Source of the DNA: Eucommia ulmoides
Taxonomy: Eukaryota; Streptophyta; Magnoliopsida; Garryales; Eucommiaceae
Direction: 5' to 3'
NCBI GenBank assembly: GCA_016647705.1
Contig: CM028325.1
Coordinates: 26,088,474-26,152,473 of the forward strand
Length of the DNA stretch: 64,000 bases
Shown here: piece after piece, positions 1 through 47,419 of the stretch
How the letters are laid out: each line of letters begins with the position of its first letter
Position numbering within the stretch: position 1 is the stretch's first letter
The notes under the pieces: model-generated
What the model was told of the DNA's origin: nothing
Databases searched by the model: none
Seen by the model: only the letters and a program-made list of their open reading frames with translations
Program-made: the position numbers and the translations under genes

Positions 1-249
1 TGTCAATGTCCCAGTACATTCGTGTTTGGAGGTAGGAAACTCATGGCCACGGTTTCATGTGGCGACATCATTTGCATGATTATGGAGCGACGTGTGTCGG
101 ATAACGTATGAAACGACTGCATAGTGTTTGTGATTGACTTGATTAACTGATTACATCAACTTGTTTCGTAAAAGATGTGCCTGTGTTAACAAGATTTGCG
201 TTAACGTTAACGTTAACTTGTCTGTCTTTCCCCCTACCTTTACTTACAG

Positions 250-1167
250 GTGATTGATTCGTATGGAGAGTGTTTGGAAGATCAAATTAGATCAATCAAT
301 CGCGTGCGGATGTCCACGTCAATCGTGCTGTTGCACGAAACGCGGTTCACGCTATCATGCATTTGGGTAAGACACTTTAGCACATGTTAGCTTTTTTTCC
401 TTTTTCATCCAAACTTGCTAACACTTTACAAAAAAAATCATAGAATGTTATAAGGGAGGATAATAATGTGCTGCTGAAAGATCTGTACTACACAATCTCC
501 AGCACATTCAGCAAAGAAGCACGTTATGTTGTGTTCCCGATGAACACTCACGGTCGACATGCGTCGCCCAATCACTGGACTGTAATGGTACTGGACATAA
601 ACGATAAAAAATGGACGTTCTACAATTCCATCCGGCCTAGGAAGAACACGACCGATCATTATTATAATGATGCGCTTACGGTGGTATGTAATTTAACATG
701 TGACTACTTTGATTGTCTCTAACTACACGCTGTTTTGTTTGACTAACCTAAATTCTGAACAGAAAAGGTTTGTGGAACGACATATTAACATGCAAATACG
801 TCCAAATTGAGGTGACGCACGTATCGAACAATGTCTCGATTCGCCACAACAACGCGGGGCGTAAGTTCACCCGTCCGAAACATGTGTACTAAAAAGTCGT
901 ATGTATTTGCAAATATATCATTCTCATCTGTTTACCTCCCCCCCCCCCCCCGGGGTTTGCAGGACTGATTGTGGCGTTTTTGTTATGTACATCATGAAAC
1001 AATATGCTGCAAATATGCCCATCGCGAAAAAACTGTTGGTGGCGGATGTACGCGGTGTCCGGAGAGACGTGATACACGCTCTACTCAACCATCCGCACTA
1101 CAGTTGGGTGCCCGTGGTTGGCGCCGATTTTGAAACAACCCAACCAGATGACACAACAAAAATCTGA
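250..1167 (+). pseudogene. Ulp1-like (C48) SUMO-type cysteine protease of the MULE, 3' four exons
   Basis: Clan CE cysteine protease domain, homologous to SUMO/NEDD8-deconjugating Ulp1. Exons with GT-AG borders in consistent phase are 250-366, 444-683, 763-860 and 963-1167. Exon 2 holds the catalytic His in NHWTVMVLD. Exon 3 ends with SPQQRG, supplying the oxyanion-hole Gln, and exon 4 opens with TDCGVFVMYIMKQ, supplying the catalytic Cys. The residue 17 positions after the His, where yeast Ulp1 has its catalytic Asp, is Asn here (FYNS). Exon 3 contains one in-frame TGA at 808-810, in a place where a Trp codon (TGG) would fit; it lies upstream of the Cys, so this copy should not make active protease. 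The gene starts upstream of the window. A poly-C run of 14 sits in the last intron. Function in transposition is unknown for the family. Confidence 0.8.
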
Positions 1168-2149
1168 GAAAATGTATATATCCCACTGATTTATTCATTT
1201 TTTGCGATTGTTGGTGCGTGTGTGGGGTTTGTAATTGTGTTAATTGTTAACGCAATTTGTAATTTTACATGTGTTGGCTGTGACCAAACGCGTTAACGTT
1301 AATGGGCTTAGTTAATGTTTAGATTTTGTTTAGTTTGTTGGTCTGGTTGAACAATTTTTACTGAAAAATGTGTTGCCGTTAACGCAAGTGACCTTAATTG
1401 CGTTGCTTTGTCTTTTGTTGCTGGGTTTTAGTTGTGTTAACGTTAACGCAAGTATGTTAAATTACTGGTTTTGTTAATCAGTTAACTTCAATCCAATTTG
1501 TACTTGTTGCACGTTAACGTTAACTCAAAATTGAAATTGTTTTATTCTGGACTTTGAAAAACTGCGTTAACGTTAACTATATTGGTTAATGTTCAGATTT
1601 GGTTAGTTTGTTTGTCTGGTAGAACAATATTTATTAAAAAAATATGTTACCGTTAACGACATGACCTTAATTGCGTTGTCTTTGACTTTGTTACTGGGTA
1701 GTATTTGCCGTGACGTTAACGCAATAAAGTTACATGTGATGGTTTCTTTACTGCGTTAACGTTAACGCAATTACTTAATTCTCTGCTGTAATTTTCGTTC
1801 CGTTAACGTTAACGTTACGTAGTTGTATCTTGCTAATGTTGGTTTGTAATGAAAAATGCGTTAATGTTTACGCGATTAGTTATTTTGAGTTTTTTTTTGT
1901 TGTAAATGCGTTAACGTTTACGCGATTAATTCTATACAAAAGAATTATGAAAAGCGTTGAACATTAAAATGTGTGAATCGTAATTGTGTTAACGTTAACA
2001 CAAAAAAAAGTTTTTGTGTTTATTATCTGTTTACGCAAAACAAAAACATCATGTGGAAAAAAACGAGGTTCCACCCCCCTTGACATTAAACATATAAATT
2101 GTTGCTGTGTCAAAACTACATAAAAGGAAATATTTGATTACTCTATGCT

Positions 2150-4530
2150 TTAAATTGAAGCAGTGCATGTCTTCCTGTTGTGGTGCCCATTCTTTTTGCA
2201 TCTACCACATCTTATTTCTGGGATCTCACCCCTTGATGGGATGCGTTTCTTCCGCGGTCGACCAGGTTGTTTTTTTGTGATCGGCGGGATAATTACAGCT
2301 TCTAATGCATTCCATTCCGATTTCTCGAACGTGGGTACACCATATATACCTTCCGAGTAGGTCATTCGGTAATATTCTACCAAGAAAAACGACTCAACGG
2401 ATGAATGTATATTCTGGCCGCTTTTTTGTATCGTCGCACAAGCATGAACACACGGGAACCCATTTCCCTGCCACCCGAAACAGGAGCACTTTTTTTTATC
2501 CACATCAACCAGAACAGATGGGATCGAGTGCACTTCGTATACGCTGTTGCCGTGCTCAACAACATTCCACGTCCGCCCGTCGCTTATCATCCGCGACAGC
2601 ATTTTATCGCGTACTGGGCATAGGAAACCCGTCATCAGCAGTGATTCGGCGCGTCTGACTGACAACTGGTTCATTACCTTGCACCTAATCTTGTCGACCA
2701 TTAATATGATCGGCAGGTGCCGGTAATCACGAATCCATGCGTTGAATAACTCCGCTAGGTTGGACGACATCTCCCCATATCTTTTGCCTTTGAAAAACAT
2801 GTTGCAGAAGTTGTCTGGCGGCACATCCTCTAGGAAATTCTCTACTCGTCCCATACCTTCTGTTCTTAATTCTTCCCTCAGCTGGTAGTATTTGTCAAGC
2901 GTCGTCGCATATGCCATCATCGAATATTTGTGCACGAGCTTCTCCTTCCACGCTTGTTTCAAACCCGCCAATTTGTCCCTCAGATTATTCTTCAGGTGGT
3001 TCAAGCAATAAGAATGAAAACAATGCGGGAACATCTTCCGGACCCTTTCAAGAATGCCACTATGTCGATCAGAAATGAAGGTTAGCACACGTTCTTTCAC
3101 AACAATTTTATCTAAATTGGTCATGAACCAATACCAGTTGTCATCGTTCTCCGCATCAACAACAGCGAATGCAACCGGGAAAAGACCTGTCCATTTACGA
3201 AAAACACAAAACAGATCAGCACGCTATGAACAAAAACATTGTATACACAGCCGTTTTTAATGCGTTAACGTTAACGCATTTAACGTTAACGTTGCAAAAA
3301 AATTCCATGTCCCCCCTCACACAAACTGTTCGAAAAAAATATAAAAAAGAAAAAAAAGAAAGCGTTAATTGCATGTAATGTGTAAACGATAGGAGTAATT
3401 GCGTTTATGTAATAAGTAGTCAACCAATTTACCATTGTTTCCATCCTTTGCGCTGGCTGCCAACAAACACCCCTTGTATCTACCCCCCAGAAATGTCCCG
3501 TCTAGAAACAGCATCGGCCTGCAGAATTTGAACCCGTGCGCAGTCGCGTAGAACGATACAAACAGTCTCTTGAAATACCCAGTTTCTTTGTCATAATCCA
3601 ACGCCAGGTGGCTGCCTGGGTTCGTCTGACTGCATGCATCCAAGTACCAGCGCAATTGATCATAAGATAATTCGTGGTCGCCGTACAAATCATCCCGAGC
3701 TTTCTCCACGCCTTTCCATGCAATGTGATATGGGATCTCAATCCCATAGTCGTTCTTGAACGTATGAACAACATCAATTGGGCGAGTTGACGGGGTATTC
3801 CGAACTAAGTCTAAAAGACATGACTTCACAACGCTACAGTTCATCTTCTCATTCCTCGATGTCCTATAAGCAGCACCGCAACTATGATTTCTCTGGAACT
3901 CCCAAATATAAAAAAACCCATTCCTTTCGTCTAGCCTGCCATGCATTCTCCATTTGCATTCCCTCTCCTCCTTAAGTGAGCATTCAGCTGTTACCCTCTT
4001 CTTGTCGTTTTTTATGTACTGAAATGTGAAACCCATTTGTACAGCATATTTCCTTAGTGATTCTCTAAATTCCGGTATTCCACCCTTAAAAATTTGCCCG
4101 GCTTCTTTAAGACCTTCAGCCCAATGATCGGACAATAATGCCTTTTTATGCAATGGGCAGAAAACGGACAACAAGTCGTCCTCCCCGTCCATGCCATCCC
4201 GCCCCCCTGTCCCGTTGGATATTCAAATAACATCCTGTCCCGACTGCCACTTGGTCCACTACCGTTGCCGCACACCTTTATCTCCACCCCCACATATTCA
4301 AGCTTCATTGCTCGTGCAAGGCTAACCATTACCTCTACGTCGTCCTGACACGATATTAGGCACCTGTCATGTCCTGGTATGGAATAAAACATCTCGAACG
4401 AAACATCCCTCAACACATCCCATTGCGACAACACATTTTGAATCAGCACCGCTTGCGTGAAATTATCATCCACCTTAACGCCCAACGAGTAACCATCAAA
4501 CTTGCACATCAAAAATATGCGTGTAGCCAT
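2150..4530 (-). pseudogene. mudrA-like MULE transposase, two exons with a frame change
   Basis: DDE transposase of the MuDR/MULE family, which cuts at the element's ends in the nucleus. Exon 1 runs 4530 down to 3433. It starts MATRIFLMCKFDGYSLGV, an N-terminal PB1-like stretch often seen in plant MULEs, followed by the MuDR DNA-binding region (CKWRMHGRLDERNGFFYIW) and the first catalytic-type Asp in MLFLDGTFLGGRYKG. The intron is 3188-3432 (GT-AG, 245 bp) and contains two copies of the palindrome. Exon 2 runs 3187 to 2150 with AFAVVDAENDDNWYWF, FISDRHSGI, a CCHC-spaced SWIM zinc finger (CSCFGWQGNGFPCVHAC) and a C-terminal zinc knuckle (CGRCKKNGHHNRKTC). The reading frame changes by one base near 4189-4215, within or beside a run of six G on the coding strand. 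This is either a real inactivating indel or a homopolymer error. All domains are otherwise present. Confidence 0.85.
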
Positions 4531-5094
4531 TGACCCCCCCAGTAAATCTGCAAGATCAAAACGGATGCAACCCCATTTTGCAAGAAAAAAACAGTAGACA
4601 AACATTAATGGGCATCGGGGGGGATTTAGATTTCAGTATGCTTATTGGTCAGTAAGCGCGCTTACTACTAATTGCGTAAATGTTAACGCAATCAAAATTG
4701 ACTGTAAAAACACAGGGGTTACATTAACGTTAACGCTGCTGCGTTACTCTGGTCCAGATAAAACACTAATGTGCGTCCGCAAGTTTAGATTTCGTTATGC
4801 TTATTGTTCTAATTGAGCGCTTATACTTATTGCGTAAACATTAACGAAAATACGCTAATTGCGTTAACGTTAACACAATCAGTTCGTGGTTTTACCTATT
4901 GTGAAACGTCACCGTTGATGTACTTAATGCGTTAACGTTAAATGCATTACTTATTGCGTTAACGTTAACGCAATCTATCACTGCTAATTGCGTAAAAACT
5001 TTAATGCATTACTTAATGCGTTAACGTTAACGTTAACGCGAAAGTAGCAGCTTGTTAACACATGTGTTAAACGTCAATCCCTTTTTTTTTAATA

Positions 5095-5760
5095 CAACCG
5101 AGTTCCTCTTTAGTTGGTAGCATCTTACTTTTCGGGAAAAAACTGAAAAAACTGTGAGTTAACTAACTTTACCGTTTACAAGCATTACGTTAATGTTAAC
5201 GCAAAAAAAAAAAAAGTTACAGTTCAAACATGTTAACGTCACTGCGTTTCGTTGCATACAACCCACAGAACCTCTGTATCTTGGAGCATCTTACTTTTCA
5301 GAAAAAAGCTGAAAAATTGTGAGTTATTTAACTTTACCATGTACACCCATTTTCTGACACTGTTTGCTTGTATCCACATTGTTATTACGTCGTCATGCAC
5401 AAAGTACATTAACGTTAACGCATTGCACACGTTATCTCATAACGTACATTCCTCACAAAATGGGCGATCGTTCATCGCCACCCCCCTCGCACATCCAACT
5501 TCGAAAAACGTTGTAACACCGACGAAAAACCCAAAAACGATATTTAAACACCATGACTATGTTTGTTATGTTGACATTGTTATTACGTCGTGATGCACAT
5601 AATACAAACCCATTACATTAACGTTAACGTGCTGCTCACGTTATCTTAGGAGCGTACATCCTTCACAAATGGGCGTTCGTTTATCGCCAACCTCGAACAT
5701 CCAACTTCGAAAAACGTTGTAACAACTCCGAAATACCCAAAAACGATATTAAAACACAAC
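5095..5760. repeat. Diverged tandem duplications in the MULE right flank
   Basis: A block at about 5388-5530 (GTTAAC palindrome, then GTTATCTCATAACGTACATT, then ATCCAACTTCGAAAAACGTT) recurs at about 5585-5735 with the same order of landmarks. A second pair, about 5095-5200 and 5255-5345, shares GAGCATCTTACTTTTC-like sequence followed by GTGAGTTA. The copies differ at many positions, so the duplications are old relative to the element. Confidence 0.7.
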
Positions 5761-5797
5761 TATATAACTTTTCAGTGAATACAATCGAGTAACTGAC

Positions 5798-6055
5798 CTG
5801 TTTCGCCTTTAGGCACAGTCCAAACGCCGTCTCGTGATATATTCGCTGTCGCCGCCGTTTCAAAACCTTCACCTCATACCCGTTCTGCAACGCCTACAAA
5901 TTTGAATCGAATGTTTTTGAAAATCCGCGCCTGTGTAATGGCTGTCGTACATGTATTTGAATCAGCAAAATGAAAAACTCTATTTTGTCGCTTACCATAA
6001 CCGAATTGATTCGTCCACCTGGCTCGTCGGAGTGAATAGAGGTATTATCGTCCAT
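5798..6055 (-). CDS. Two N-terminal leader exons at the right end of the MULE
   Basis: Exon 1 is 6055-5996 (ATG, 20 codons, MDDNTSIHSDEPGGRINSVM), followed by GTAAG. Exon 2 is 5893-5798 (32 codons), beginning after TAG with ALQNGYEVKVLKRRR and ending KAKQ before GTCAGT. Both exons are in phase 0 and both borders are canonical, so they look like the start of a minus-strand gene. They lie just inside the right end, where the transposase promoter would be expected. A plausible continuation is the transposase, through an acceptor just upstream of 4530. The phase does not fit unless a run of seven G there has changed length, so they may instead belong to an independent small gene. The peptide is Arg/Lys rich; I do not recognise a domain. 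Confidence 0.5.
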
Positions 6056-6190
6056 CGACGTTCACCTTGTCTTCGTCGGAGAACTGAAATCTAAACCCAT
6101 CGTACGGGGAGGTCTGAGCCCTAAACGGTCTTGTGAAAAGGTTTATACTCTAAGGGAACTCTCTATACGGGACTATTAAATAAAAAACTC

Positions 6191-6353
6191 TACAAATTAT
6201 CATATAACCTAATGAATACTATTTTTTATTTTATAAATGTAATTTTAATTTTTTATATCTTTACTTTTTATTTTCTCACATATTATTCTATAACATTCAC
6301 CAACAAAACTTTATTATAATACTAGCATATAACCTATGACTGGTAACACTGAC
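6191..6353. other. AT-rich spacer, nothing recognised
   Basis: AT-rich DNA between the right side of the MULE and the next inverted-repeat element. No ORF, no repeat and no regulatory site that I can support. Confidence 0.5.
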
Positions 6354-7909: not shown

Positions 7910-8401
7910 TGCTCTTCCCCCAAATAAACCTCCATCTCCAATTTCCAATACTAATATACATAAATCTTGGAATCCCCATCTCAAATCTTCAAGCCATTAT
8001 TCTAATCATCATCAAAAGACTAAAATATTTGTATGTTGCTGTTTTTGATGACTCGAGGTTCGCCGAAAAGGGAACACTCGCGAAAGGCCACGTATACCTT
8101 TTGGAACCCAGACCTTCAATGAGACCTTGCGATGTGGCAACAATGGCGGAAAGCGGGGGGGTGACTCACCCACAGTTCCTTCAACCAACGCACATAAAAC
8201 AAGACACCTATTCATCTCATCCATGAAAATCAATAAACAAATCACCAATTGCAATTATTATAGCTCACCCACATGCAGTTCACCAGAATCCAAAAACTCA
8301 TCTTGTCGCCTCTATGTTCTTCATACAAATAGCAGGAGTTACATACCTTCTTTTCATCAGTCGAGAAACTTTGAGCTGATTCTTCTTATTTTTTGGGTAA
8401 A
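7910..8401 (+). promoter_or_regulatory. 5' flank of the DUF241 gene
   Basis: Between the MITE and the DUF241 start the sequence becomes less AT-rich and has no element ends. I see no clear TATA box or intron. It probably holds the proximal promoter and 5' leader. Confidence 0.3.
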
Positions 8402-9268
8402 ATGGGGATTAAACAGAAGCAACACATTCGATCGGTTAGTTTGCCCTGCAGATCGCATCCCAGTACCGTACGAATCGAAGAGGAGCTGAACAAGATCAAA
8501 GCGCTGGAGCCATCTTCGGTCTGTAATGGAGTATCTGGACTGGACGATTTGTATTTGTGCTTGGATGATCTTCTCAATTTGGCGACGACGCAGCAAGCGC
8601 TTTCTCAACATCATCGGGAGAGTTGGTTCAACGAGTTGTTGGATGGACCGATGAAGATGTTGGATATCTGCGGCACCACGAGAGATTTCGTTTCAGAAAT
8701 CAAGGAGAACGTGAGAGATCTTCGGTCGTCTTTGAGGAGACGAAAGACAGATTCGAGCTTGGAGATCGGCATCGCAAAGTCTAGATCCTTCGGGAAGAAG
8801 ATGAAGAAGGAAGCGAAAAGATTGGTTGCGGCATTAAAACAAACAGATAACCAGCATTGTTCATCATCACCGCTGCTAGATCTCGATCTCCACCTCTCGG
8901 CGGTGGTCAGAGCGCTGAGAGAAGTTAACGCCACGAGCTCCTCCACCTTCCAGTCCCTCTTGTTCTTCCTTTCTTCTCCGATTTCGAAACCGAAGCCATC
9001 GAGATGGTCACTGGTTTCCAAATTGATCCACAAGGGAGCGGTATCATCCGAAGAACAGAGCGATAAACCAAACGAAATGGAAATCGTCGATGCGGCATTG
9101 ATCGATCTGTGCCGGCACGGTTCAGGCGAAATCAAGAAGATTCAAACCGTGCAGAACCGATTGGAGGCACTGGAGAAGATGGTGGAAGAAATTGAGAATG
9201 GATTGGAGTGCTTGTTTAGGCGATTGATCAGAACAAGGGCATCACTTCTCAACATCGCCTCCCATTGA
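8402..9268 (+). CDS. DUF241 family protein, 288 aa, intact
   Basis: Single-exon plant gene of the DUF241 family (PF03087), whose biochemical role is not established. The start is the ATG at 8402; an in-frame TTG three codons upstream is not used in eukaryotes. Family landmarks are in order: an N-terminal basic segment with VSLPCRSHPSTVRIEEELNK (~residues 10-30), a helical segment with WFNELLDGPMKMLDICGTTR (~75-95), an Arg-rich stretch DLRSSLRRRK (~105-115), and the conserved C-terminus with EIENGLECLFRRLIRTRASL then LNIAS. It is predicted to be largely alpha-helical, with no signal peptide or membrane segment. Length is typical of the family. A diverged paralogue lies on the same strand at 46598-47419, so the two probably arose by local duplication. 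The open frame and family-like ends argue for a functional gene. Confidence 0.9.
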   Translation: MGIKQKQHIRSVSLPCRSHPSTVRIEEELNKIKALEPSSVCNGVSGLDDLYLCLDDLLNLATTQQALSQHHRESWFNELLDGPMKMLDICGTTRDFVSEIKENVRDLRSSLRRRKTDSSLEIGIAKSRSFGKKMKKEAKRLVAALKQTDNQHCSSSPLLDLDLHLSAVVRALREVNATSSSTFQSLLFFLSSPISKPKPSRWSLVSKLIHKGAVSSEEQSDKPNEMEIVDAALIDLCRHGSGEIKKIQTVQNRLEALEKMVEEIENGLECLFRRLIRTRASLLNIASH

Positions 9269-20875: not shown

Positions 20876-22117
20876 CGGCATGTTTGGTTGGACGGAATCG
20901 GGGGCGGAATGGAATCGCATTCCGCTTTCGATTCCTATTCCGTTGTTTGGTTCTCCAATGGAATCACTTTTGTGATTCCATTGGAATGAAATATGGTGGA
21001 ATGGGATTCCATTTGAGATAGGGTGAAATGGGATTCCAACCCAAAGAAACCAACAACCTAAATTACATAATAGCCCTTGTATTTAAACTCTTGAAAATTG
21101 AGAACAAAAATTAAAAATTAAGAATAGAAACAAAAATTAGAAAACAAAAATAGAAATTAGAGAACAAAAAATTAGGAATAGAAACAGAAAATTGAAAACA
21201 AAAAATTAAAAACAAAACAAAAAATTGAGAATATAAACTGAAAATTGAGAACAAAAATATAAAATTAGAGAATATAAAATTGAGAACGGAAACTGAAAAT
21301 TGAGAACAAAAAATGAAAATTAAGAACAAAAATAGAAAATTGAGAACATAAACTACAAATTGAGAACAAAAATAAAAATTTAAAGAACAGAAAATTGAGA
21401 ACAGAAACTGAAAATTGAGAACAAAAACTGAAAATTAAAAACAGAAATAAAAAATTGAGAGCAGAAACAAAAAATTTAGAACATAAACTGAAAATTGAGA
21501 ATAAAAACAGAAAATTAGAGAACGGAAATTGAAAATTGCGAACAGAAACAGAAATTAGAGAATAGAAACTGAAAATTGAGAACAAAAACTGAAAATTAAG
21601 AACAGAAACAGAAAATTGAGAACAGAAACAAAAAATTTAGAACATAAACTGAAAATTGAGAAGAAAAATAGAAAATGAGAGAACGGAAACTAAAAATTGC
21701 GAACAGAAACAGAAATTAGAGAATAGAAACTGAAAATTGATAACAGAAACAGAAATTGGAGAATCGAAACTTAAAATTGAATGAAATAGTGAAATATAAT
21801 AAAATGAAGGAAGGAATGGAATAGTGAAATATAATAAAATTTTGTAAAAAGGGTATAATGAGAATTTTATTATATTTTATTTCATTGTTTCACTCATTTC
21901 ATACCAACCAAATAAGATAATGAAATAATAATTTCATAAGAGTATAATGGTAATTTTACTATATTTCATTATTCCATTCCTTCTTTCATTCCATATCAAC
22001 CAAACAAGAGAATGGAATAGTGATTTCATTGATAATTTCATTCCATTTCTTCTCTCATTCTATCCCTTCTTCCATTCTATTCCATTCTCATTCCATTCCG
22101 TCCAACTAAACGAGCCG
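20876..22117. mobile_element. PIF-like non-autonomous element with an AT minisatellite core
   Basis: Ends CGGCATGTTTGGTTGGACGG and the complement of CGGCTCGTTTAGTTGGACGG, flanked by TCA at 20873-20875 and 22118-22120. A 3-bp duplication fits PIF/Harbinger, although TCA is less usual than TWA. Inside both ends are GGAATGGAATC-like subterminal repeats. Confidence 0.65.
21093..21780. repeat. Minisatellite of about 19 bp, GAAAATTGAGAACAAAAAC-like
   Basis: About 35 imperfect tandem copies, occupying more than half of the surrounding PIF-like element. Long open frames on the minus strand here are translations of the repeat and not genes. Confidence 0.85.
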
Positions 22118-26918: not shown

Positions 26919-29900
26919 GTGGAGGTGAGCACGATCGATGTCACCACACACAATGTTATCTCCTTCAGCGAGGCCGACCTCAAGGGGGTGCATACTCCCC
27001 ATGACGATGATTTAGTGATATCAGCCCTAATAAATCAATATAAGATAGGGAAGATCCTGGTCAATGTGGGCAGTTCCACTGACATAATCTTCAAATGGGC
27101 TTTCGACAAATTGAAAGTGGATCCAAGCATTGTGTATCTCGCTCTGTCTCTTATTGTTAGCTTTGGTGGAGACGTCGTCAGCTCATTCGAATGGGTTTCC
27201 TTGCCTGTCACAGTGGGATTGAAACCTAGGTCGGCCACAGTGCAAACCAAGTTTTTCATCGTGAATAGGCCCTTGCCCTACAACGCGATCATGGGTCATC
27301 GTATTGTAGCCACCTTGAGGGCCGTTTGATCTTCATACCACCAAATGATGAAGTTCCCTACCAATCATGGGGTGAGAGAAGTACGAGAAGATCAAGAGTC
27401 AGCTAGAGCGTGTGCTATGAAGGCACTAGAAAAGAAGAAATAGTAATTATCGACTGGGCTCAAGCTTAGTGAAATTCAGCTCAGATGTCCTGAGCTCATG
27501 GCCTCGGACAGTAATGCCAGGCTCAAACCAATCAATAATCTCTACAAGAAGAGCTTGAGACCTGACCTCATGAAGATCTCCTGGAAGTACCCAATCACCC
27601 TTCTATCAAAGGGAGGACTGTGAGAATAGGAGTTGGGGTTAGCCCCGAGCAAAAGATCGAGCTCACCGACCTGCTACGGAAGAACTATGATGTCTTCACC
27701 TGGTCCCAATGATCGATCTTGGGGTGGCCATGCATTGGCTGCATGCCGATGTGTATCATCCTCCAGTCTAACAGAAGCAAAGAAAGTTCCACCCTGATCG
27801 ACAGAAGATCATCGAGGAGAAGATGGATAAGCTCATTAAATCCGACATCGTAGAAGATGTCAAGTTCCCAGATTGGCTATCTAACGTGGTAATTTCTCCT
27901 AAGACCGAGAACAAATTGAGCATTTGTGTAGATTTCAAAGATTTGAATAAGGCCTGCTCAAAAGATTGCTTCCCCTACCGAGGATAGACATTGTTATAGA
28001 TGTCACTGCCAGGTATGAGCAGTTGAGCTTTCTCGATGTGTACGCTGGTTACAATCATATTTCGATATACCCTCCTAATAAAAGCAACAGCTCATTCATC
28101 ACATATTGAGGAACTTACTATTACAAGGTCATGCCGTTTGGGCTATGCAACACTGTAGCAACATATCAGCGATTGGTCAACAAAATGTTCAAAGAGGAGA
28201 TCGGGAAAACCGTAGAGGTGTATATCGACGACATGTTGGTTAACAAAATTTGAGCTCAGGAACACCTCGGGTATCTCCAAGCCTGCTTTAACAAGCTTTG
28301 AGCTCATCGCATGGAGCTTAATCCCAACAAATGCATATTTGGAGTGTTTGCGGGTAAGTTTCTCAGGTTTATGGTGTCCCGGCATGGTATTGACGCTAAC
28401 CCCCACCATATCAGTACTATACTCGGGATGGCTTCACCCCGCACCAAGAAAGAAGTCCAAATGCTTACGAGGTGGCTAGCAACACTTCATCACATTAACT
28501 CCCGATCCTCCAAGAAGTGTCTTTCATTTTTTAAAGTAATAAAGGGAAACAATGCATTCGAGTGGATCGAGGAGTGTGAAAAGGCATTCCAAGATCTCAA
28601 GAAGTACCTCTCCTTGGCTCTTCTGCCCAGTACACTGAGAATAAGCGATAAGTTATTCTTCTATATCTCGGTGTCCTCCACGACGGTGAGCACAACCTTG
28701 GTGAGATAAGAGAATGGTATTCAAAGCCTGGTATACTACTCCAGTAGGGTCCTCACTGACGCAGAGACTAGGTATTCACGATTTGAAAAGCTAGCGTATG
28801 CCTTATTGATCTTTTCAAGAAAGCTAAGGTAATATTTTCAGGCCCACACCATTGTCATTCTAATTTATCAACCACTAAGACAAATCTTTCATTCCCTTGA
28901 TGTCTTTGGGCATTAATGAAGTACATATTTGAGCTCGGTTAATTTCATATCGATTAACAACCCTGGATAACAATCAAGGGGCAGGTCTTGGCTGATTTTA
29001 TCGCCGAGCTAACCTTCACAGACAAAGAGTCGAGTATCGACCTAGATCTGCCACGAAAAATCCTTCTCTTAGCAAAGAGGTTGGTGAAACCCCCAGCACG
29101 GGAACTGACCTAAGGTCAAATTTTTTGCAACTGTTCACGGATGGTTCCTTTAATCAAAGTTGTTGTGGGGCCAGGATGGTCCTCGTAGCCCCAGGTAAGG
29201 AGGAGGCTGAATATTCTCTTCGGCTAGGATTCAGATCCAAGAATAACAAAGCAGAGTATGAAGCCATGTTAGTTGGGCTGAAGTTAGCATGGGATTTCAA
29301 CGTGAAGACTCTCCAGATCCTGTGCGATTCCCAGCTCGTGGTCAACCAATTAAATGGTGACTACCTAGCCAAGGACTCAACCATAGTTGCCTACCTGGAG
29401 AGGGTAAGGGATTTGATAAAAAACTTCAAAAGAGTTCAAGTCACACAAATTCCCTGGAAAGAGAACAAGCATGCCAATGCATTGGATAACCTGGCCTCCA
29501 CGATAGAATACATCCTAAAGTGAGTCGTGCCTGAGGAATACCTGGTCGAGAAAGTCTTGAAGCATCAGATAAGGTTACGACCATATGTGTGCTCAATACC
29601 GAGTTGTCCTGGTTGGACCCAATCAAGGATTACCTCGAAAGGAGGAACACTGCCAAATAACCGAGCAGAATCCAGGAAAATAAAGTACCGGGCCACAAGG
29701 TATATCCTCTTCGACGGACTACTATATTGGAAGTCTTTCTCAGGCCCTTACTCTGGATGTGTCCGACTTTAGGAGTCCGATTACGTAATGCGAGAAGTTC
29801 ACAAAGGGGTATGCGGCAACCATGTAGGGGGCAGATCCTTGGCTCGGAAACTCCTCCGACACGAGTACCTCTAGCAAAAAATATTGGAAGATGTAAGTGA

Positions 29901-46597: not shown

Positions 46598-47419
46598 ATG
46601 GTTACTTTCTCTCCAAGATCAGGCAGCCGCCGCCTTAATTTTCGCTCCACCAGCTTCCCATCGAGATCGCACCCAACGACGATCAGAATCCAAGAACAGC
46701 TGACCAAACTCAAGAATTCAGAATGACCCTTTTCATCCAAATCAGAGGCAATCATCAACGCCCTCTCGATCCTCCTCGAATTATACCAGAACATAGAACA
46801 ACTGCTGAATTCGCCGCAGACCCATCAGTTTTTGGCCGGAAATCAGCGCCGGAAATGGGTGACGGAGCTACTGGAAACGTCGGTCAGATTCATTGACGTC
46901 TGCGGCGGTGCGAGAGAAACCGCAACGGCGATGAAGGAATGCGTACGTGAAACTCAGTCGTCCCTGAGACGTAAAAACGCAGGGGACACGAGCGGCGCCG
47001 ACGGGATTGCCGTCGCCATCGCCGACGCTTATGGTCGAACCAGAAACAAAACCAAACGAGAGATCTCGAATTCTCTCTCGACCATAAAGCGAATCAACAC
47101 GAGAGCCGAACCCAAATGGGGTTCGGAACCGGAACAACTTCCTCCGGAGATCGGGATTATGACGGAAACTTGCTCGATCACCGTTCTGGTTTTCCAATCG
47201 TTGATGTCGTTTCTTTCTCCGCCGGCGATGAAATGGAAGAAACCCAGAAAATGGGGATTGGTTGCGAGAATTAAGGACAGGGGACAAAGCACAGAATCAT
47301 TGGACGGAAAATTGGAAGCTCTGGATGAAGCCATTGGAGAAATTGAAGGTGTTTTGGAGCTTCTGTTCAGACAATTCATCCACAGCAGAGTTTCCATTCT
47401 CAACATACTGTCCCACTGA
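46598..47419 (+). pseudogene. Second DUF241 family gene, one premature stop
   Basis: Plant DUF241 protein, function unknown, 273 codons from the ATG at 46598 to the TGA at 47417-47419 in one frame. The N-terminal signature STSFPSRSHPTTIRIQEQLT is present. So are WVTELLETSVRFIDVCGGAR, ETQSSLRRK and the C-terminal GVLELLFRQFIHSRVSILNI, all matching the gene at 8402 in order and spacing. One in-frame TGA at 46724-46726 (codon 43) interrupts it, just after the N-terminal signature; everything downstream stays open for 230 codons. No intron borders remove the stop. It is therefore a very young pseudogene, an allele, or a base-call error. Translation from an internal ATG would lose the N-terminal signature. 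Confidence 0.8.

Follow-up and report, generated by a model that had tools for sequence, protein, structure and literature searches.

Palindrome arrays in a Eucommia ulmoides Mutator-like element as the probable target of a transposon-encoded, VANC-like anti-silencing system

We analyzed a 64-kb stretch of the Eucommia ulmoides genome (C1:26088474-26152473 of a 947-Mb genome), referred to here as the window, whose left end is occupied by part of a Mutator-like transposable element (MULE). The non-coding DNA of this element is studded with copies of an 18-bp perfect palindrome, and next to its transposase gene the element carries a second gene with the domain layout of a VANC-like anti-silencing protein. 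We consider it probable that the array of palindromes forms the cis component of a VANC-like anti-silencing system encoded by the transposon. This reading draws on where the palindromes lie, on the gene that accompanies them, and on the way in which motif and protein change together among sister elements.

The palindrome array lies in the non-coding DNA of the element

A preliminary description of the window placed the element at 197..5630. Comparison with other copies gives it a larger extent, with its right end at 6190 and its start 4,585 bp to the left of the window, in an adjoining stretch that we read as L031. Long terminal inverted repeats are absent; each end has only a short, degenerate repeat of ~22 imperfect bp. 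A second copy, at C1:11 Mb, has a target duplication of its own, TATAATATA (identified by eye). The element is delimited as follows:

C1:26083889-26094663: MULE of 10,775 bp, defined by its ends and a 9-bp duplication; only its right 6.2 kb (window 1..6190) lies in the window
L031:5290-9874: left 4,585 bp of the MULE, outside the window, to its left
L031:5281-5289 and window 6191-6199: 9-bp target site duplication TACAAATTA, flanking both element ends
Window 6169..6190, minus strand: right terminal signature, reading inward GAGTTTTTTATTTAATAGTCCC, with weak similarity to the left end GGGAATTTTAATTTTTAGTCC

The extended consensus of the palindrome is TGCGTTAACGTTAACGCA, with little information in the bases farther out. 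The window contains 21 matches to it at up to three mismatches, of which three are perfect (at 1752, 3261, and 4955), and 22 matches to GTTAACGTTAAC at up to one mismatch, compared with shuffle means of 0.00 and 0.21, respectively. All of these matches fall within 197-5628, and none occurs elsewhere in the 64 kb at the same stringency. Across the whole element we counted 38 copies of the core TTAACGTTAA, 19 in the window and 19 to its left, where ~0.2 would be expected (order-2 model, computed on an initial 10.4-kb delimitation of the element). No core was found in the flanks examined, or in the window beyond 5618. The earlier count of at least 16 copies is thereby upheld and exceeded.

Their placement is equally distinctive. 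All 38 cores fall outside the exon mask (5,029 bp, with approximate edges), as the preliminary description had proposed in calling the palindrome confined to non-coding DNA. Introns hold 22 of the 38, and 18 of the 19 cores left of the window sit in two introns of the second gene. No core lies within 316 bp of the left end or within ~560 bp of the right end. Within the window, the sites are distributed as follows:

200..217: overlapping pair of GTTAACGTTAAC cores, intronic in the VANC-like/Ulp1 gene
1240..2002: motif array between the two genes, in the spacer that separates their 3' ends, with seven TTAACGTTAA cores (1293-1998) and degenerate copies
3261..3290: two cores, one of them a perfect 18-bp palindrome, in the transposase intron
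4673..5628: motif array 5' of the transposase gene, with eight TTAACGTTAA cores (4724-5627) and degenerate copies

Part of the last array is a 27-bp tandem repeat (4921-5030). Elsewhere the 18-mer occurs within 293-bp repeats in intron 1 of the second gene, in copies spaced 26-30 bp apart, and singly. Because it recurs in such different surroundings, with little information outside it, the array is not one expanded repeat.

The preliminary description further held that the palindrome is kept while its neighbors drift. This is modestly supported at A/T sites, where 497 of 513 aligned positions inside cores are identical, the count for nearby flanks being 963 of 1,068 (P 8e-7, a value that overstates independence because the counts are pooled over seven related copies, and to which alignment anchoring on the cores may contribute). 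It is not supported at CpG sites, where the difference between core and flank is not significant (P 0.07). Helical phasing of the sites was considered and rejected: the 24 spacings of up to 120 bp give a vector length of 0.28 and no clear 10.5-bp phase, the recurrent spacing being 26-30 bp instead.

The second gene has a VANC-like layout and ends in an Ulp1 protease domain

The identity of the second gene, like the left half of the element and the other motifs of its sister subfamilies, was not part of the preliminary description. The gene lies on the plus strand and comprises, in order, a short first exon, a 1.2-kb intron, a conserved exon, which we name the VC exon, linker exons, and Ulp1/C48 exons:

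~L031:5825-5888, plus strand: first exon of the VANC-like gene, placed by eye
From ~L031:7084, plus strand: VC exon, DUF1985/plant-mobile-domain (PMD)-like
L031:8463-9788, plus strand: linker exons, coiled-coil-like in appearance, judged by eye and from weak Pfam hits
Window ~250-366, 444-683, 763-860, and 963-1167 (span 250..1167), plus strand: 3' exons, with edges set by eye

The Ulp1/Peptidase_C48 domain at the end of the gene (window 444-722) scores 22.0 bits against PF02902 (E 1.7e-4, cut-off 20.7), the last Ulp1 exon by itself scoring 13.1 bits, under the Pfam cut-off. The window copy has all three candidate protease residues, His (NHW), Asp (VLDI), and Cys (DCG); in several other copies at least one of them is lost or the C48 exons contain stops. 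Matches to the C48 exons also accompany the VC gene in L033/34, L035/36, L038/39, L046, and L049. At the other end of the protein, open reading frames (ORFs) of seven paralogues yielded DUF1985 matches in four cases (E 0.0012-0.026, 14.9-19.2 bits, cut-off 35.1) and PMD matches in three (best E 3.3e-7, 30.3 bits, cut-off 34.9). DUF287, which we do not treat as defining, was not among the Pfam matches of the window copy or of these seven ORFs, and searches of VC exons against PDB and NCBIfam, and of one C48 exon against PDB, returned nothing useful.

The VC exon is mostly under purifying selection: of 11 measurable pairs, 10 have a dN/dS of 0.10-0.53 and one has 0.84; four more pairs were saturated. 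In the window copy, in-frame stops interrupt two exons of the VC gene, so that this copy probably serves as a target of the system and not as its source. Longer open VC frames occur in other copies.

Motif class tracks the clade of the VANC-like protein

Of 2,159 tblastn candidates obtained with the VC exon, 150 were scored, at 56-100% identity. Among the first four divergent loci (L046-L049), three lack TTAACGTTAA and carry another arrayed word at the same place; L048 has three cores. We assigned a motif class to 26 of 27 VC loci (A, 10; B, 4; C, 6; D, 6), and the VC exons of the other classes are 56-62% identical to that of the window. The class words, chosen after k-mer inspection and required at least twice per locus, were TTAAYRTTAA for A, GAAYRTTC for B, TGTATGTTAA for C, and any of GAACATCAA, ACATTTACG, and ACATCAACAC for D; the labels of L045 and L056 rest on two sites each, and those of L057 and L067 on three. 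For L047 and one stretch of L049, an EM motif finder settled on poly-A solutions.

In the loci examined, motif class tracks the VC protein clade exactly. On a tree of VC exons the labels of the 26 loci change three times, the minimum for four classes, while 1,000 label shuffles gave at least nine changes (mean 13.8). Bootstrap values are 80 for A (98 with L050), 97 for B, 95 for C, and 100 for D. No word of another class occurs in the intron of any of the 26 classed loci. The unclassed locus, L050 (C10:46750523), has a VC exon without stops and, in intron 1, a single class A word with no recognizable array; either its motif has been lost or it belongs to an unrecognized class.

The words of the sister classes are also enriched genome-wide. 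Motif B, TGTGAAYRTTCACA, which is its own reverse complement, occurs 1,663 times (control 26), motif D, GTTGATGTYCACG, 198 times (control 22), and motif C, TGTATGTTAACTC, 126 times (control 41). Measured against an incomplete list of 122 VC exon entries, some exons appearing twice, 73 of 100 listed D sites have a VC exon no more than 4 kb away, all 73 being upstream of it on the same strand (chance ~0.2%); with the 12 sites in pattern-choosing loci removed, the count is 61 of 88. For motif C, 33 of 100 listed sites are near a VC exon on a partial list, again all upstream on the same strand (22 of 89 without the 11 sites in pattern-choosing loci), and in all 49 neighboring pairs within 3 kb the two sites share a strand.

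The motif is abundant genome-wide and retained in gene-less copies

The genome search suggested in the preliminary description revealed strong enrichment. TTAACGTTAACG occurs 6,827 and 6,787 times on the two strands, compared with 281 and 306 for the reversed control, and the perfect 18-mer occurs 1,015 times, compared with 0; all 10 class A copies examined have the motif. Of 16 listed sites or clusters on the first 13.13 Mb of C1, 13 were fetched, those at 7.62, 8.83, and 12.19 Mb being left out. Most, not all, of the fetched motif clusters are explained by the element. Three of the 13 (L033/34, L035/36, and L038/39) are long copies carrying both genes. L045 has the VC gene, in a stretch that ends before the remainder of the element; L028 has a left end and a 48-bp right-end match, and L027 a left end. 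L037 (2.6 kb, L037:3537-6157, 19 cores) and L041 (0.95 kb, L041:4547-5497, six cores) have both ends and no match to the element's proteins.

In L035, the copy at C1:13.12 Mb, the central CG is often CA or TG, with 17 occurrences each of TTAACATTAA and TTAACGTTAA; in older copies, decaying methylated CpG would be expected to produce such changes.

A possible frame common to the four motif classes

When centered on AYRT, the four classes can be written as CGT-TA-ACGT-TA-ACG (A), TGT-GA-AYRT-TC-A (B), TGT-GT-ATGT-TA-ACT (C), and TGT-TG-ATGT-YC-ACG (D). Tentatively, they could be versions of a single frame, T-NN-AYRT-NN-A, to which YGT is often added on the left and AC on the right, with the spacers serving as a specificity code. 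We hold this to be possible rather than likely, and offer the shared frame as a lead, weak in class B.

YGT is found on the left of 63/100 A, 14/30 B, 28/42 C, and 35/43 D sites, and ACR on the right of 65/100, 6/30, 12/42, and 33/43, respectively, in counts where the seed words fix part of the core; class C prefers ACT on the right. The pattern YGT-Nk-AYRT-Nk-ACR stands out only at k=2 (A 49, B 3, C 9, D 36), with shuffle means of at most 0.63 and 0-3 occurrences at other k. It is absent from VC exons, where just 0.2 would be expected. A looser frame, RYRY-NN-AYRT-NN-RYRY, set before the held-out loci were inspected, peaked at the 2-bp spacer in held-out A (8, 40, and 13 at 0, 2, and 4 bp) and D (45 and 7 at 2 and 4 bp), with no such peak in held-out C (7, 4, and 5 at 0, 2, and 4 bp). 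Among held-out loci, the refined YGT/ACR pattern favored k=2 in A (23), C (6), and D (29), although it was partly fitted to the same data, having been refined after words of the held-out loci were seen. None of three further B loci (L064-L066) has the full frame.

If the frame is real, its conserved positions would be recognized by some conserved region of VANC-like dimers, and specificity would lie in the two dinucleotide spacers. Anti-silencing specificity could then evolve by a two-bp change per half-site, yielding palindromic (A, B) or mixed-half (C, D) sites.

The transposase gene

The preliminary description's identification of the element as a MULE is confirmed by its transposase, in which three Pfam domains exceed their cut-offs (PF03108 1.7e-14, PF10551 3.2e-10, PF04434 5.5e-9):

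2150..4530, minus strand: transposase gene, in pieces, with DBD_Tnp_Mut, MULE, and SWIM domains

Its intron, placed by eye, spans ~3188-3433. Between ~4054 and 4222 (window, minus strand) the gene undergoes a -1 frame change. All four transposase copies examined have this change between the same two conserved stretches, near a G run (L033:3440-3680, L035:1930-2170, and L038:2970-3210 in the other copies). It could be a shared ancient frameshift, an unrecognized intron, or programmed frameshifting.

Proposed mechanism and alternative explanations

We propose that the second gene encodes a VANC-like protein with a DUF1985/PMD-like domain, a variable, coiled-coil-like linker, and an Ulp1 protease. 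Supplied by any active copy, this protein would bind the 18-bp TGCGTTAACGTTAACGCA at dozens of sites in introns, spacers, and gene 5' regions. Once bound, it would remove silent chromatin across the element, allowing the transposase and VANC-like genes to be expressed from the same copy, and non-autonomous copies carrying the sites would be opened too. For binding to the motif, and for removal of methylation upon binding, we infer the parallel from Arabidopsis VANC21 and VANC6. More speculatively, the protein may bind as a dimer, which we propose because the site has two-fold symmetry; the linker might form a coiled coil, and the protease might strip SUMO from silencing proteins at the bound site.

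Several observations weigh against this proposal. The DUF1985 similarity is under the curated cut-off, and some unrelated families score similarly (for example UTP20_C, E 0.0044); the VC exon ORF of the window copy has no Pfam match at E up to 1, and this copy is probably not itself an active source. Of the 13 fetched C1 clusters, four (L029/30, L040, L042, and L043) resemble the element in motif only, and L044 has a single weak match of 142 bp inside an element. On the incomplete lists, no VC exon is near 27 of the 100 D sites listed or near 67 of the 100 C sites. The Eucommia site is an 18-bp perfect palindrome, whereas the VANC21 and VANC6 words, as given in the accessible text, are asymmetric and 8-9 bp long. 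Finally, the agreement between clade and motif would, taken alone, also fit a motif read by the transposase, because motif and VC gene are inherited together.

A transposase reader is the strongest of the alternatives, although we consider it unlikely. The palindromes would then be binding sites for the element's MURA transposase that aid the pairing of ends for transposition, much as sub-terminal site arrays are used by TnpA of En/Spm and by the Ac transposase. The encoded MURA has a DNA-binding domain, non-autonomous copies retain the sites, and motif class would track the transposase lineage as well. Yet the sites start only ~316 bp from the left end and stop ~560 bp short of the right end, and in L037 the last core is ~1 kb from the right end (the first is ~190 bp from the left). 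Because the cores avoid both termini and are largely intronic, and because the element carries a VANC-like gene, the transposase is probably not the reader. The preliminary description had envisaged, among other options, a landing platform for the transposase or a zinc-knuckle domain; a multi-site platform for an element-encoded protein remains the best reading, while the choice of the transposase or a zinc-knuckle domain as its reader is unsupported.

Recognition by a host DNA-binding protein, such as a promoter, insulator, or nucleosome factor, would account for dense, spaced copies at promoter-like and intron positions. It appears very improbable, as sister elements carry three other motifs, each in step with its own VC gene, which a single host factor would not need. 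Equally remote is a neutral spread of a chance word by tandem duplication and gene conversion with no reader at all: part of the array does lie inside the 293-bp and 27-bp tandem repeats, but the 18-mer recurs in differing contexts, it has no copy in the exon mask, and its flanks carry little information and are somewhat less well kept.

A VANC-like system of this kind would bear on an open question, namely how a transposon protein can recognize a whole element and yet change its target quickly. With at least four natural protein-motif pairs in one genome, possibly built on one frame, specificity could be swapped and mapped directly. The apparent system is of large scale (1,015 perfect class A sites), its palindromic targets predict binding as a dimer, and the gene-less 0.95-kb element L041 offers a convenient test target.

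Other features of the window

Outside the element, two open frames on the plus strand, 8375-9268 (297 aa) and 46727-47419 (230 aa), are alike by eye and apparently belong to one host gene family; we take them to resemble plant DUF241 proteins. A further plus-strand open frame, 28996-29523 (175 aa), presumably resembles retrotransposon RNase H. A tandem array at 21092-21780 is built from 34.5 copies of an AT-rich 20-bp unit and shows a higher-order period of 161 bp.

Comparison with known systems

Maize MuDR/Mu shares with the Eucommia element a MURA-type transposase and a 9-bp target duplication, and differs from it in having long terminal inverted repeats and a different second gene. Among VANC systems, work by Sasaki et al. 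(EMBO J, 2022) reportedly distinguishes several distinct systems and gives motif density a role.

The closest parallels are VANDAL21 (Hiun)/VANC21 and VANDAL6/VANC6 of Arabidopsis thaliana, compared here on the accessible portions of the published sources. They too are MULEs with short, degenerate ends (PMC5735166, PMC10398659); VANDAL elements are described as having short or degenerate terminal repeats and a 9-bp target duplication (PMC6446971). Their second protein combines variable regions with a domain of DUF1985 type, to which the Eucommia protein shows weak similarity under the Pfam cut-off, and they carry arrays of short motifs in non-coding DNA (introns, spacers, and ends), partly as tandem repeats, with different motifs on related elements. 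VANC21 binds YAGTATTAY, and the regions affected by VANC6 carry AGTTGTCC/AGTTGTAC; these motifs are likewise non-coding, in tandem repeats, and different between related elements (PMC5735166, Hosaka et al. 2017). DUF287 is named for VANCs in the Fig. 5 legend of the same paper, whereas in the Eucommia element DUF287 was not found and an Ulp1 domain is present. In this last respect the element resembles the Ulp1-carrying VANDALs KI-MULE/Kaonashi (KIU), non-TIR MULEs (without terminal inverted repeats) with a VANC-type gene ending in an Ulp1 domain. According to the accessible part of a 2026 review, which cites Sasaki et al. 2022, VANC genes that carry Ulp1 also recognize specific motifs in elements of their own kind, with strong conservation of the Ulp1 domain among eudicots (PMC13317346).

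The presence of four motif classes in one non-Arabidopsis genome sets the Eucommia elements apart from VANDAL21 and VANDAL6. No palindromic VANC motif was found in the accessible literature, most subscription papers lying outside the search, and the word "palindromic" is absent from the accessible text of PMC5735166 and PMC10398659. VANC systems are a known kind, and what seems new here is a palindromic target, together with a possible shared frame, T-NN-AYRT-NN-A, whose versions differ mainly in their two spacers.

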